A stretch of DNA of 32,962 bases from Chloroflexota bacterium. Its GTDB lineage: Bacteria > Chloroflexota > Anaerolineae > UBA1429. The stretch spans positions 1 through 32,962 of the forward strand of contig JAIOAW010000028.1 in assembly GCA_019873625.1 (NCBI GenBank), given 5' to 3'. Under the pieces are notes generated by a model, which was not told the DNA's origin, did no database searches, and saw only the letters and a list, made by a program, of their open reading frames with translations. This document shows, piece after piece, positions 1,183 to 21,624 of the stretch. The position numbers and the translations under genes were made by a program. Numbering within the stretch: the stretch's first letter is position 1; each line of letters begins with the position of its first letter.

Positions 1183-2951
1183 TATGTGCCTCCCTTTTTC
1201 TCCTGATCATACAGTTCAACCCGCGAAATGCGCCCGCCGCGCCGTTGGAGGTCTTTGACCACGGGGTGGTTCAGCAAACTTTGGCGGGCATCGAGCGCCT
1301 CATCGCTGGGCGAGCGCAGGTCCAGCGTGCCGCCGTTCGGCGGCGGGGCGGGCGCCGCGGCCTTTTGCTCCACCGCCTCGGGCTGGACGATGCATTGAAT
1401 GCGGCACGGCGTGCCCAGCGTGGTCGTGAGGACCTGCTCCACAAGGGCGCGTTTGTCATCCTGAGAGAGTTTGTCGCGGTGGAGCGCCCATTTGCACCCC
1501 AAGGTGATGACCTGCCCTTGCACGGCCACGGGATATGCATCGCGCAAGAGGGCCTGCACTTGCCGATCCAGGCTCCGCATCCGCAGGATGACGGCCTCCC
1601 AATGGCCCCGAACCCAATCGAGCGTGAGAGAAGGGGCCTCTCCCGCGCTCTCCACTCGAGATTCGGCAGGCGCCTTCTCAGCTGGCGGCCCCGAAGGCGC
1701 CGCTGCGGGCGCCTCGCTGGTAGGCGATGCCGCTGCAGCCACCTCGGGCGCCTCTTGCGCGGGGGGCGCCGCCTCTACCAAGGGCGTGCGCACAGGGGCT
1801 GGCTCGGGGCGTGTTCCCGTCGGCGCGCCCTTCCCTTCCGTTGCCTCTGGCATAGCCCCTTCGGAGGGCAGAAGGGCCTCTACCAAGGCGAGTTCAAGGG
1901 GCAGTTGTGGCCGCACAGCATTGCGCACCCGGGGGCCGGCATCGTTGAACAGGCGGATGGCCCGCACCAGGGCGCTCACGGGAAACCCCTCGCGCGAGGC
2001 CAACTCGCGCAAGGCGCGTACCGCCTCCGGTTCCAGGTTGGCGAGATGTTCCTCTCCCCCCACGCGCAATAGGAGCAGAGCGCGCAGGTACTCCAGCACC
2101 TCCCCCAGGAACTGCTGGGGTTCGGCCCCCTCGTCGAGGGCGTGGTTGATCGCCCGCAACCCCAAAGGGATGTCTCCTGTAGCCACGGCGCGCACCACAT
2201 CCAGCACCAGCGAGAGGGCCGGCGTGCCCAAAATCGCCTCCACCAAAGAGGCCGTGATCTCGCCCGTGCTGAACGAGGCGAGTTGATCGAGCAGGCTTTC
2301 GGCATCGCGAAAACTGCCGCCTGCACGCCGGGCAATGCGCTGAATGGCCTCCGGCGCGATCGAAAGCCCCTCTGCAGCGCAGATGCGGCGCAATTTGTCA
2401 GCGATGGCGTTCACCGAACCGCGCCGAAAATCGAACCGTTGGCAACGCGAGAGGATCGTATCGGGCAGGCGATGCGGCTCGGTGGTGCAAAGGATAAAGA
2501 TAACGTGCGATGGAGGCTCTTCGAGCGTCTTCAAGAGGGCGTTGAAGGCCTCCGTAGTGAGCATATGCACTTCGTCAATGACATAAACTTTGAAGCGGGA
2601 TTCCTGCGGCACAAAGGCCACCCGGTCGCGCAGGTCGCGGATTTCGTCAATGCCTCGGTTGGAGGCTGCATCAATCTCGATGAGGTCCAGCGAGCGCCCC
2701 TCGTTGATGTGCCGGCAGGTGGGGCACTGATTGCACGGGGGATTCTCCACGCCCCCGGTGCAATTGACGGCCTTGGCCAAAATGCGCGCCGTGGAGGTCT
2801 TGCCCGTGCCGCGCATCCCGGTGAACAGATAGGCATGCCCGATCCGCCCCGCCTTGATTTGATTTTGCAAGGTGCGGGTGATGTGCTCTTGGCCCAGGAT
2901 ATCTTCAAAGGTTTGCCCGCGCCACCGGTTGTAGAGCGCCTGCGTGGTCAT
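1182..2951 (-). CDS. dnaX: DNA polymerase III subunit gamma/tau
   Basis: This is the clamp-loader ATPase that loads the beta sliding clamp and bridges the replisome. Of 589 residues, 1-180 form the AAA+ core: Walker A GMRGTGKTS (45-53), zinc-binding cysteines C64, C73, C76 and C79, Walker B VIDEVHM (124-130), and the SRC arginine-finger motif (168-170). The clamp-loader collar follows to about 365. A long Pro/Ala/Glu linker (about 370-440) leads to a C-terminal tau-like domain. I see no A-rich slippery heptamer for programmed frameshifting, so gamma, if made, would need another mechanism. The start has GGAAAG about 8 nt upstream. It is the first gene of the dnaX-ybaB-recR operon. Confidence 0.97.
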   Translation of the reverse strand: MTTQALYNRWRGQTFEDILGQEHITRTLQNQIKAGRIGHAYLFTGMRGTGKTSTARILAKAVNCTGGVENPPCNQCPTCRHINEGRSLDLIEIDAASNRGIDEIRDLRDRVAFVPQESRFKVYVIDEVHMLTTEAFNALLKTLEEPPSHVIFILCTTEPHRLPDTILSRCQRFDFRRGSVNAIADKLRRICAAEGLSIAPEAIQRIARRAGGSFRDAESLLDQLASFSTGEITASLVEAILGTPALSLVLDVVRAVATGDIPLGLRAINHALDEGAEPQQFLGEVLEYLRALLLLRVGGEEHLANLEPEAVRALRELASREGFPVSALVRAIRLFNDAGPRVRNAVRPQLPLELALVEALLPSEGAMPEATEGKGAPTGTRPEPAPVRTPLVEAAPPAQEAPEVAAAASPTSEAPAAAPSGPPAEKAPAESRVESAGEAPSLTLDWVRGHWEAVILRMRSLDRQVQALLRDAYPVAVQGQVITLGCKWALHRDKLSQDDKRALVEQVLTTTLGTPCRIQCIVQPEAVEQKAAAPAPPPNGGTLDLRSPSDEALDARQSLLNHPVVKDLQRRGGRISRVELYDQEKKGGT

Positions 2952-3004
2952 AGGATCTTTCCATCGTGGGCGAATAGGACGGTTCGAGAGGCCCCGACAC
3001 GTCC

Positions 3005-3034
3005 ATTATGGGCACCCAAGGCCGAAAAGTCAAA
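3005..3034 (-). promoter_or_regulatory. Promoter of dnaX-ybaB-recR
   Basis: The minus strand has TTGACT (3034-3029), an 18-bp spacer, then CATAAT (3010-3005). Each box matches consensus at five of six positions. Predicted transcription start near 2998, about 47 nt before the dnaX ATG. Confidence 0.6.
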
Positions 3035-3094
3035 CGTCCTGGTCGCGCGGGCGATGAACCTTCCACCGTGCACCACTCATAGGGGATACGCGGG

Positions 3095-3122
3095 TTGGCC
3101 GCATAACGGATTGTGCTATAAT
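3095..3122 (+). promoter_or_regulatory. Promoter of the MFS transporter gene (extended -10)
   Basis: A perfect TATAAT (3117-3122) is preceded by TGC, giving an extended -10 TGnTATAAT. A weak TTGGCC -35 lies 16 bp upstream. The predicted start near 3129 is about 40 nt before the ATG at 3168. Confidence 0.6.
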
Positions 3123-3167
3123 CTCTCGGCCAAACGGTTTGAGCCATTTTTGCCAGCCCGGAGCGAG

Positions 3168-4493
3168 ATGAAGTCAGCACTTGCGGCCCATTGGGACCGA
3201 TTTTCGCGGCGCGTTTCGGCTAATCTAGAGGCCGTGGCCGAGCGCAATATCACGTTTCTTTACGTCGAGGTGGTGTTCGCCTCGATTTTGGCGGCGGCGA
3301 GTTCCTTCGATAGCGCCTACGTCCTGCGGCTGGGCGGTTCGAACCGCCTGGTGGGGCTTCTCGCCTCGCTGCCCGCGCTCATCGCCATCTTTGCCTATTT
3401 GCCTTCGGCGCGCATTTTGCAAAAGCAGAGGCACTATGCGCCTTGGGTGGTGGGGAGCCTGCTCCTCGCGCGCACGGGGTATGTGGCCATCTTGCTCCTG
3501 CCGTTCTTTCTCAAGCAGTTCCTGCCAGAGGCTACGGTCGGCATCCTCATCCTGATGACGCTCCCGTCGGTCTTTTTCTCCACGGGGTGGAGCCCCCTCT
3601 TGAGCGACGTCATCCCCGAACGGTCTCGCGCCACGGTCCTCGCCTGGCGCAGCATCCTGAGCAGCGCCACCGTTGCCTCGCTTACCTACTTGGCAGGGCG
3701 GATGCTGGATCGCGGCACCTTCCCGAGGAATTACCAATGGCTGTACGCTATTGGCTATGTGGGCGGGCTGATAAGCGTCCTCTTTGTGGCGCTGATTCGC
3801 GTGCCGGAACAGGCGGCAACGACCTTGCCGCTTACGGGGGAGCGGCAGGAATCGTTTGTGCACTCTGTCCTCTCGATGGTGCGCGAGAATAGGCGTTTTT
3901 CTTACCTCATCCTCAACACCTTTCTCTTTAACCTCGGCGCCTGGATGCTCGGGCCATTGTATATGATCTTTTTTGTGCGCCAGTTAAAGGCCACCGATAG
4001 TTGGGTAGGCCTGAACACGACCCTCGCGCACATTGGCGTGGTGGTGGGGTATTGGGTTTGGCGGCGCTTGACGCGCCGCTGGGGAGACGCCAAGACGCTT
4101 CTCATCGCCCTACCACTCACGGTAACGTATCCCTTTATGGTGTCGGCCTTTCCGCACCTCACGCCCATCCTCGTGGCCGGCTTCCTTATCAACGCGTTTG
4201 CGCCCGGGGTGAACCTCAGCCATAGCCTCATCTTCCTCGACCTCTTACCGAAAGGGCGCAAGCACGATGCGACAGCCCTCTATAGTATGGTGATGAACAT
4301 CGGGGCCTTTGCCTGCCCCCTCGTGGGCGTTGCGGTGGCTAACGCCATCGGCATCCTGCCGACGCTCCTCATCGGGGGGACGCTGCGCGTCTTGGGCGCG
4401 GCGATGTTTTACATTTTGCCCGTCAAAGGCGAAAGGCCCCCTTTCAACACACTCCTGCCCAAATTCCTGCGCCGCAGTTCCCCCAGCGCGTAA
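3168..4493 (+). CDS. Major facilitator superfamily transporter
   Basis: The 441-residue product is a polytopic inner-membrane protein with about twelve hydrophobic segments starting near residue 26, a central cytoplasmic loop (about 205-225), and short polar ends. This length and pattern fit MFS permeases; the LGGSNRLVGLLASLPAL region resembles the loop between the first two helices. Substrate cannot be inferred. An open frame runs upstream into dnaX territory, but the ATG at 3168 is chosen because GGAG precedes it by 6 nt and the extended -10 promoter lies at 3117-3122. It stands alone between the divergent dnaX operon and the amidohydrolase gene. A GC-rich inverted repeat (4510-4531) follows without a T-tract. 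Confidence 0.85.
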   Translation: MKSALAAHWDRFSRRVSANLEAVAERNITFLYVEVVFASILAAASSFDSAYVLRLGGSNRLVGLLASLPALIAIFAYLPSARILQKQRHYAPWVVGSLLLARTGYVAILLLPFFLKQFLPEATVGILILMTLPSVFFSTGWSPLLSDVIPERSRATVLAWRSILSSATVASLTYLAGRMLDRGTFPRNYQWLYAIGYVGGLISVLFVALIRVPEQAATTLPLTGERQESFVHSVLSMVRENRRFSYLILNTFLFNLGAWMLGPLYMIFFVRQLKATDSWVGLNTTLAHIGVVVGYWVWRRLTRRWGDAKTLLIALPLTVTYPFMVSAFPHLTPILVAGFLINAFAPGVNLSHSLIFLDLLPKGRKHDATALYSMVMNIGAFACPLVGVAVANAIGILPTLLIGGTLRVLGAAMFYILPVKGERPPFNTLLPKFLRRSSPSA

Positions 4494-16430: not shown

Positions 16431-17135
16431 ATGCCCTCCTTAGGCCAAACGAGGCCCTGGCTCGGCGTCGTTGCGGCGATCCTCGGCCTTTCGGTCCCCA
16501 TCATCCTGGCCGTTTCGCCGCTCTATGGGTTCATCCGCCCCGGATATGTGGAGGCGCAGTATCGGCGGCCCGCTTTTCCGCCTTCGTGGCGCTTTTCGCC
16601 CGAGGAACGCGCCCGCCTTTCGCGGCCCATCCTCCTCTACTTGCAGGGGCGCGCCACGGTCGAGGAGATGGCCGGGATGCGCACCGATTCCGGTCAAGTC
16701 GCCCTCCTCCCCGAGGAGGTCCAACACCTGGTGGATGTGCGCCGCGTGGTGGATGGCTTCTTTCTCGCCCATCGGGCGGCCTGCGCCATCGCCATCGTCG
16801 CTGGAGCCCTGTTGTGGGTTTTGGGGGCGAAACGGGCCTTTTTCCGCGCCTTGCGCGCCGGCGCCGGCGCGATGTTGGGGCTTATCTTGCTCATCCTGTT
16901 GAGCGCCCTGGTGGATTTCAACACCTTTTTCACGCGGTTTCACCAGGTCTTTTTCCGCGAGGGGTCGTGGATCTTCGCCGAGGAGGATACGCTCATCCAA
17001 CTCTATCCCCTGCCCTTCTGGGTGGATACAGTTACGAGGCTCGTGCTCGCCATCCTGGCTGAAGCGCTTATCCTCCTGATATTGGCGTGGTGGCTCGAGA
17101 GGCGCTTGCTCGGGCGAGGCACAGCGTATGATTGA
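16431..17135 (+). CDS. TIGR01906/DUF1461 membrane protein, Lit-like
   Basis: The 234-residue product has four membrane segments (about 10-30, 114-133, 140-161, 199-221) and a large loop between the first two. VQHLVDVR (97-104, with H99) and FTRFHQVFFREGSWIF (167-182, with H171) are hallmarks of the TIGR01906 family. Characterised members in Gram-positive bacteria (Lit) move a fatty acid from the lipoprotein diacylglyceryl group to the amino-terminal cysteine; two conserved histidines are required there, and H99 and H171 are the candidates here. That activity is inferred from the family. GGAGG lies before the ATG. The stop overlaps the HD-domain gene by 8 bases, so the two are coupled. Confidence 0.8.
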   Translation: MPSLGQTRPWLGVVAAILGLSVPIILAVSPLYGFIRPGYVEAQYRRPAFPPSWRFSPEERARLSRPILLYLQGRATVEEMAGMRTDSGQVALLPEEVQHLVDVRRVVDGFFLAHRAACAIAIVAGALLWVLGAKRAFFRALRAGAGAMLGLILLILLSALVDFNTFFTRFHQVFFREGSWIFAEEDTLIQLYPLPFWVDTVTRLVLAILAEALILLILAWWLERRLLGRGTAYD

Positions 17136-17766
17136 CGTCGAAACGGCCCGCCGCTATTACCAGGAGAGCGATTCTGCCCACGGCTTTGAGCACGTCCTGC
17201 GGGTGTGGCGGTTGGCTCAGCGCCTCGGCCCGCCGGAGGGCGCGGATATGGAGATCCTCCAGGCCGCCGCCCTCTTGCACGATGTAGGGCGCCCCGAGGA
17301 GGCGCGCACGGGGCGCTCGCACGCCGAAATCGGCGCGGAATGGGTGCGGCGCATTTTGGCGGGGCACCCGCCGGAAAAGGTCGAGGCCGTGGCGCGCGCC
17401 ATCCTCCAACACCGCTTTCGCGGCGGGGCCGCGCCAGAGGCGGTGGAGGCGCGCGTCTTGCACGATGCGGACAAATTGGATGCCCTCGGGGCCATCGGCA
17501 TCGCGCGGGCCTATGCCATCGCCGGCGCCTACCGCCAGCGCCTGTGGGCCGAGGTGCATGCGGACTATGCCGAGCGCCCGCCCGCCGAGGGGCAGAACGA
17601 TTTGGCCTCTTCGGAGCACACGCCCGTCCACGAATATCTATTCAAACTGCGCAAACTCGCCGGGCAAATGTACACCTCGGCGGGGCGCCGCATGGCGGAG
17701 GAGAGGGCGGCCTATATGGCGGCCTTTTTCGAACGTTTGGCGCGCGAGGTCGCAGGGGAAATCTAG
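17128..17766 (+). CDS. HD-domain phosphohydrolase
   Basis: The 212-residue cytoplasmic protein has an HD metal-binding constellation: H22 (HGFEHVLRV), H51-D52 (LLHDVGR), H95 (ILQHRF), and D113 and D115 in LHDADKLDALG (111-121). The last motif is typical of YedJ-like HD hydrolases that act on nucleotides or other phosphoesters; the substrate is not known. The domain takes up about residues 15-150. A mixed helical tail containing YLFKLRKLAGQMYTSAGR follows, as in relatives. The ATG lies inside the end of the DUF1461 gene. The TAG stop overlaps the TAG stop of the convergent Rrf2 gene (CTAG), leaving no space for a terminator between them. Confidence 0.9.
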   Translation: MIDVETARRYYQESDSAHGFEHVLRVWRLAQRLGPPEGADMEILQAAALLHDVGRPEEARTGRSHAEIGAEWVRRILAGHPPEKVEAVARAILQHRFRGGAAPEAVEARVLHDADKLDALGAIGIARAYAIAGAYRQRLWAEVHADYAERPPAEGQNDLASSEHTPVHEYLFKLRKLAGQMYTSAGRRMAEERAAYMAAFFERLAREVAGEI

Positions 17767-18206: not shown

Positions 18207-18232
18207 CGGGAACCTCGGGGCATACTGACCTT

Positions 18233-18284
18233 TTCAATCAACTTACTTGAATTATAGAACATCCCAATAGGCTGTCAACATCCC
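18233..18284. repeat. Operator-like repeats at the Rrf2/DUF362 divergent promoters
   Basis: On the minus strand GGGATGTT occurs twice, 19 bp apart (18284-18277 and 18265-18258). One copy overlaps the Rrf2 -35 and lies between the two divergent -35 boxes; the other is in the Rrf2 spacer. An inverted repeat TTCAA-N9-TTGAA (18233-18251) covers the predicted Rrf2 start point. These are candidate binding sites, with Rrf2 itself the obvious candidate. Confidence 0.45.
18251..18278 (-). promoter_or_regulatory. Promoter of the Rrf2 gene
   Basis: On the minus strand a perfect TTGACA (18278-18273) and perfect TATAAT (18256-18251) are separated by 16 bp. Predicted start is near 18244, about 38 nt before the ATG. 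Such a strong promoter commonly needs repression. Confidence 0.75.
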
Positions 18285-18288
18285 GATT

Positions 18289-18316
18289 TTGACCCCTTCC
18301 CCCACTCTGCTAGAAT
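18289..18316 (+). promoter_or_regulatory. Promoter of the DUF362 gene
   Basis: TTGACC (18289-18294), 16 bp, then TAGAAT (18311-18316) preceded by TGC, giving an extended -10. The predicted start near 18323 is about 42 nt before the ATG. The two divergent -35 boxes are only 10 bp apart. Confidence 0.65.
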
Positions 18317-21360: not shown

Positions 21361-21624
21361 ATGGCTTTCAAGATCAGTGACGAATGCATCGCCTGCGGCT
21401 CCTGCGAATCGGAATGCCCCAACGAGGCGATTTCGCCGGGGGATGGCATCTATGTGATTGACCCCGACAAGTGCACGGAATGCGTCGGCTTTTACGATAC
21501 GCAGCAGTGCCTGGATGTCTGCCCCGTGGAGGCGCCCGGCCCGGATCCGGATCGCCGCGAGACGCGCGAGCAGTTGTTGGAAAAGTTTGCCCGGCTCCAC
21601 CCCGGCAAGACGCCGGTGCTCTAG
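21361..21624 (+). CDS. 2[4Fe-4S] ferredoxin, Alvin/YfhL type
   Basis: The 87-residue product is a small cytoplasmic electron carrier with two [4Fe-4S] clusters. The first cysteine set is C9, C12, C15, C19 (CIACGSCESECP). The second is C38, C41, C50, C54, where the insertion of eight residues between C41 and C50 is the mark of the Allochromatium-vinosum/YfhL-type ferredoxins, known for unusually low and split reduction potentials. A short C-terminal helix (about 66-80) is also usual for this group. GAAGGAGGA lies about 8 nt before the ATG. It is a single-gene unit under a strong promoter; its redox partner is not evident nearby. Confidence 0.95.
   Translation: MAFKISDECIACGSCESECPNEAISPGDGIYVIDPDKCTECVGFYDTQQCLDVCPVEAPGPDPDRRETREQLLEKFARLHPGKTPVL

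Follow-up and report, generated by a model that had tools for sequence, protein, structure and literature searches.

The window, that is, the whole stretch of 32,962 nucleotides analysed here, is one contig (C28) of a 2.76-Mb assembly in 47 contigs. It contains a gene for an Rrf2-family regulator and, divergent from it, a gene for a DUF362 protein, each preceded by a promoter-like site (Table 1). A gene for an HD-domain protein converges on the Rrf2 gene, and one for a Lit-like membrane protein lies on its far side. Among the loci of 14 relatives from the same family, the HD gene adjoins Rrf2 in 11 and the Lit-like gene is close to it in all 14. No Fe-S assembly gene was seen among the gene neighbours of Rrf2 in the loci that were inspected. 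A gene for a YfhL-type 4Fe-4S ferredoxin lies in the window at 21361-21624, past the CTP synthase gene. In what follows, G, C and L denote genomes, contigs and loci, G000 being the window's own genome. Elsewhere in this assembly, the ends of two contigs carry an identical sequence (G000:C29:15-41 and G000:C40:13-39), which suggests a repeat that broke the assembly.

Table 1. Features of the Rrf2-DUF362 region (window positions).
Feature	Position	Strand	Remarks
Gene for Lit-like membrane protein	16431-17135	+	PF07314
Gene for HD-domain protein	17128-17766	+	PF01966; convergent with Rrf2
Gene for Rrf2-family regulator, 147 aa	17763-18206	-	PF02082, E 5.6e-37
Conserved block AGTAAnTTGATnGAnAAnnT	18222-18247	-	Probable autoregulatory operator; starts 3 nt after the Rrf2 -10
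Inverted repeat TTCAA-N9-TTGAA	18233-18251		TTCAA 18233-18237, TTGAA 18247-18251
Rrf2 -10, TATAAT	18251-18256	-	Promoter 12/12 matches
GGGATGTT, copy 1	18258-18265	-	Inside the Rrf2 promoter spacer; not conserved
Rrf2 -35, TTGACA	18273-18278	-	16-bp spacer to -10; promoter 12/12 matches
GGGATGTT, copy 2	18277-18284	-	Overlaps the Rrf2 -35 by 2 bp; not conserved
DUF362 -35, TTGACC	18289-18294	+	16-bp spacer; promoter 10/12 matches; similar sites in relatives
DUF362 -10, TAGAAT	18311-18316	+	Promoter 10/12 matches
Gene for DUF362 protein, 367 aa	18365-19468	+	PF04015, E 5.7e-23

An earlier note on this DNA, made from the sequence alone, had described a near-perfect promoter in front of Rrf2 and a second promoter in front of DUF362, with 10 bp between the two -35 boxes. 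Our data agreed with this description in coordinates and in quality of the sites. Two promoter-like sites were found where shuffled sequences gave a mean of 0.4 (sd 0.7). The site in front of Rrf2 recurred in relatives: a sigma-70 promoter with at least 10 of 12 matches was present in 15 of 16 orthologue upstreams, the window's own copy and one from another family included, as compared to 2% of resampled upstreams. For DUF362, 14 upstreams could be compared, namely the window's own and those of 13 of the 14 same-family genomes, the copy in G004 being cut at a contig end. All of them contained a promoter-like site with at least 9 of 12 matches and 12 reached at least 10, levels attained by 10% and 1% of resampled upstreams, respectively.

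Alignment of the Rrf2 upstreams revealed a further conserved element, the block AGTAAnTTGATnGAnAAnnTnnnnTT, which begins 2-7 nt past the -10 box, a distance judged by eye. In the window this block is 26 bp long and, by usual spacing, presumably covers the Rrf2 transcription start. Since its sequence is kept while its distance from the -10 box varies, it is distinct from the promoter. With a matrix from which the window's own site was withheld, the block reached 25.7 bits, as compared to 5.9 for the second-best site of the window. In leave-one-out tests the chosen site ranked first in all 14 loci and scored at least 13 in 12 of them, the result being marginal at L006 (5.8 against 4.9) and L018 (3.5 against 3.3). 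A search of 15 genomes, the same 15 that an order-wide search returned, had the Rrf2 promoter as top site in 13 of them. The matrix used there was trained on 14 of these same promoter sites, so that the genome search is not independent and the leave-one-out test is the fairer one. The Rrf2 promoter of G008 (L016) showed no clear copy of the block and was omitted from the operator model; in G009, the matrix search gave no match at the Rrf2 promoter. From this conservation, we consider the block a probable autoregulatory operator of Rrf2, specific to this lineage.

The inverted repeat TTCAA-N9-TTGAA, which had been noticed previously over the Rrf2 start, has to be seen in the light of this block. 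Its position was confirmed and its centre is the centre of the 26-bp block. Taken alone, the repeat is at chance level: two five-base inverted repeats with gaps of 3-15 bp were seen, for a mean of 2.02 in 2000 resamples, and its best match in relatives reached 5-8 of 10 bases. Only the overlap with the conserved block makes it meaningful.

The Rrf2 protein itself is well conserved, with orthologues of 60-69% identity in all 14 same-family genomes; the 14 named copies of more than 59% identity are from Anaerolineae or Chloroflexi metagenome assemblies. It contains exactly three cysteines, C92, C101 and C107, already recognised in the earlier note as being of the cluster type. They were invariant in all 16 aligned orthologues; in a wider set of 22, C101 and C107 were invariant and C92 nearly so. 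This invariance makes Fe-S sensing by the Rrf2 protein plausible, and a ligand loop with three conserved cysteines is one of the traits of Fe-S-binding Rrf2 regulators. Characterised members of the IscR/RirA/NsrR/RsrR type are reported to use an Fe-S cluster (PMC9338935; PMC5411485; PMC5863699).

Membership in the Rrf2 superfamily was clear from a PF02082 score of 127.3 bits, for a cut-off of 30, and from an Rrf2 fold, predicted with a mean pLDDT of 92.2, the best matches of which were CymR and TpIscR. The IscR equivalogs TIGR02010 and NF008110 scored 83.1 and 63.6 against cut-offs of 207.55 and 275 (values in the order of the models) and the CymR equivalog NF047409 scored 105.8 bits against 195, and we therefore refer to the protein as an Rrf2 regulator of the IscR/CymR type. 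CymR from B. subtilis (PDB 2y75) was both the top Foldseek match and the top NCBIfam equivalog match, but lacks the three cysteines in the alignment. The closest solved chain by sequence was T. potens IscR (PDB 4cic, E 1.5e-38), which has serines at the three cysteine positions, with the x8/x5 spacing of the window's Rrf2. E. coli IscR, NsrR and RsrR share the Rrf2 fold by structure match, whereas equivalog scores for IscR, RirA and NsrR were far under their cut-offs; RsrR was compared by structure alone. Our literature search found no paper combining Rrf2, Chloroflexi and a regulon.

Based on these data we favor, at a probability of about 70%, a self-regulated and probably Fe-S-binding Rrf2 located beside an unrelated DUF362 gene that has its own promoter. 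An Rrf2 dimer would most likely bind the element at 18222-18247, just downstream of the -10 box, and would in this way repress the strong promoter of its own gene; this repression would be lifted when the cluster is lost or altered. The DUF362 gene would have been set next to Rrf2 by a rearrangement in this lineage, in the place usual for a TtcA-like gene.

This usual neighbour deserves closer attention. In 12 of the 14 same-family relatives, the gene divergent to Rrf2 codes for a TtcA-like PP-loop tRNA thiolase, at a distance of at most about 500 bp in 11 of them and of 1588 bp in G009; the gene in G001 is cut by the contig end. In all nine proteins that were aligned, both the PP-loop and the central CxxC of TtcA are present. 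Their best NCBIfam model is NF007972, but the five copies scanned scored 150-175 against its cut-off of 272 bits, and we therefore speak of a TtcA-like subfamily. In E. coli, TtcA requires a [4Fe-4S] cluster (PMC6082896). Rrf2 and the divergent thiolase may be the real functional pair in this clade, with a sensor of Fe-S next to a sulfur-transfer enzyme that needs Fe-S. This pair would have been split in the window's genome, where Rrf2 would act on ttcA in trans or would no longer act on it. We hold this to be possible, though clearly less probable than Rrf2 autoregulation on its own, with which it is compatible. The conserved block is at the start of Rrf2 and not at that of ttcA. The TtcA-like gene of the window's genome, located on C32 apart from Rrf2, has no operator in its locus (best score -0.3 bits), and no close orthologue was found in G002 and G004, assemblies that are 83% and 82% complete. 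Synteny alone, moreover, is no proof of regulation. In the three loci scanned for it (L100, L112 and the own locus L185), the gene next after the TtcA-like one is pyruvate-kinase-C-like. In L185, the region that separates the TtcA-like gene from a divergent glycosyltransferase gene contains, at about 2325-2395 (G000:C32), two near-identical stretches of ~22 bp, the core of which reads TGATAATTnTACCGG on one strand. They are possibly sites of a second regulator.

We also looked for operator copies beyond the Rrf2 promoter. With up to two mismatches, the operator occurred at eight sites in the own genome as compared to two for the control. Six loci from a pattern scan of the same-family genomes were inspected: four of the matches were inside long ORFs, L065 was ambiguous and L074 was intergenic. 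The latter (1501-1514; G005:C75:3339-3352) is an exact operator core between genes for DnaJ and Hsp20, found in this one genome only. The matrix gave nine weak matches away from Rrf2 promoters, at least four of which look intergenic (L168, L169, L172, L173). Two weak operator-like matches, at about 1501 in both L171 (G005) and L172 (G008), are near genes for M24 peptidases. Since these two M24 proteins align over 30 residues only (E 0.021), we do not take them for a common target. The genome search scored at most 150 candidates per genome, in nine of the 15 genomes 150 from a longer first-look list, and a weak target could be missed at this depth. Among the pattern matches inspected and the candidates scored there was no convincing further target, which is odd for a regulator. 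Fe-S assembly genes were considered as targets as well: there was no operator in the eight SUFBD loci searched, nor in the surroundings of either of the further two Rrf2 genes in the window's genome. SUFBD matches were obtained in eight of the 15 genomes, one per genome, and in all 14 control genomes; this clade may have a reduced or an unusual apparatus for Fe-S assembly.

The block at the Rrf2 start could also be an element of the 5'-leader or of the initial transcript, or else the site of another regulator. Its location just past the -10 box, from where it enters the presumed leader, would be in line with this, as would its weak symmetry: 42% of positions matched at its own centre, for 17-43% at other centres. 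Rrf2 dimers usually prefer dyads. We nevertheless judge this explanation unlikely. The best copy of the block is at the Rrf2 promoter in almost all genomes searched, as described above, and no Rfam family matches it. A further argument comes from the protein. All 15 family members have the recognition helix YLYQL / SRRGPQGGH, or a near form of it, whereas the more distant orthologues at L019, L114 and L115 have other residues in the helix and no clear copy of the block. This correlation fits with a protein helix and a DNA block that have changed together. Upstream of the orthologue at L115, the neighbour is an ATP-sulfurylase gene (2698-3873).

The TpIscR-like Rrf2 proteins of Firmicutes provide another point of comparison. 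At L116 and L118 the cysteines have the same C-x8-C-x5-C spacing as in the window's Rrf2, and the promoters contain a AGTAACTT core (reverse strand), with the same centre as our block, inside ACC-N13-GGT or ACC-N13-GGG. Unlike these promoters, the block in the window is without the ACC and GGT ends. The helices differ as well, being YLEQL / SVRGAQGGY in these Firmicutes and YLYQL / SRRGPQGGH here. The arrangement ACC-N13-GG(T/A/G) is common to the Rrf2 promoters of L116, L117 and L118.

The earlier note had put forward another model, an Fe-S or redox switch in which Rrf2 occupies repeats located between the two promoters and governs its own gene as well as DUF362. The two divergent promoter-like sites with closely spaced -35 boxes, the three cluster-type cysteines and a conserved element at 41 bp from the DUF362 -35 would all suit such a switch. 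Among the repeats of this model was the pair of GGGATGTT copies, 19 bp apart from start to start. The positions of both copies were correct. Their occurrence as a pair, however, is nothing unusual: of 5000 first-order resamples of the 158-bp spacer, 323 had at least one 8-mer repeated exactly at a distance of 8-30 bp, and 38 such pairs occur across the window. None of the 14 same-family upstreams (130 bp each, allowing matches of at least 6 of 8 bases at 8-32 bp from each other; L019, from another family, was omitted from this count) has the pair. In the own genome, the exact pair with 19-bp spacing is a single occurrence. With up to three mismatches, there were 29 sites for 14 with a reversed control; one of the other sites, on G000:C11, was inspected and is inside a long ORF. 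The note had itself stated that repeats lost from relatives, with the promoters retained, would refute its model, and for this pair that is what the relatives display. We rejected the pair as an operator; the two copies are probably coincidental.

The distribution of DUF362 argues in the same direction. Matches to this protein were obtained in 52 of 60 genomes, own and weak matches included, with E <= 1e-60 in 44 of the 60, and all 14 same-family genomes are among them. Identities of 73-84% were obtained for the ten full-length copies from the same family. In none of the 14 same-family relatives does DUF362 adjoin Rrf2, within 1.5-4 kb or up to the contig end. A search of 20 DUF362 loci, drawn from the 29 other than the window's own, gave no operator, and upstreams of relatives keep the promoter-like site without it. 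A divergon, for which adjacency would be conserved and an operator shared, is therefore not what we see here, and the claim that Rrf2 controls DUF362 is not supported. The switch as a whole appears quite improbable to us, and control of DUF362 by Rrf2 unlikely. The short distance between the block and the DUF362 -35 nevertheless leaves room for an incidental effect, and binding of Rrf2 to the block may have one on DUF362 in this genome.

Concerning the DUF362 protein, PF04015 (82.5 bits) was the sole Pfam match. This family is reported to be in clan CL0471 with DUF2088/LarA (PMC11770544) and often to co-occur with Fe-S domains (PMC5742341). Unlike many family members, the window's protein has no Fe-S motif, as had been observed before: a ferredoxin-type cysteine motif is absent and neither of its two cysteines (78 and 158) is invariant among the 24 copies aligned, out of 30 DUF362 loci. 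Sequence comparison with solved structures gave nothing convincing (best E 0.074), and a fold predicted from the single sequence, with a mean pLDDT of 33.3, was left out of the analysis. Downstream of DUF362 the window has the CTP synthase gene, which holds for G010 and G005 too; the remaining eight full-length loci from the same family have no CTP synthase gene within 1.5 kb of DUF362. That the junction between Rrf2 and DUF362 arose during assembly and not by a true rearrangement is very improbable: the adjacency is private to this one 47-contig assembly among the genomes examined, but the junction is located within a contig of 33 kb, with both promoter-like sites undamaged, and the CTP synthase neighbour of DUF362 is the one seen in G010 and G005.

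In conclusion, ordinary autoregulation of Rrf2 through a lineage-specific operator is the best reading of this locus. The comparison with relatives removes a regulatory story limited to one genome and gives a testable one in its place, with a definite candidate operator for a not yet characterised branch of Chloroflexota Rrf2 proteins and a conserved pairing of Rrf2 with a TtcA-like tRNA thiolase. A more far-reaching proposal, which we regard as rather doubtful for the time being, would be that this branch, at family or order level and recognisable by Tyr 43 and the SRRGPQGGH helix, uses its new 26-bp operator to couple cluster status to the divergent Fe-S-dependent tRNA thiolase. If this coupling were true, iron-sulfur supply would be linked to tRNA modification, and if the pairing is functional, it would connect Fe-S status with tRNA thiolation in a phylum that has been little studied.
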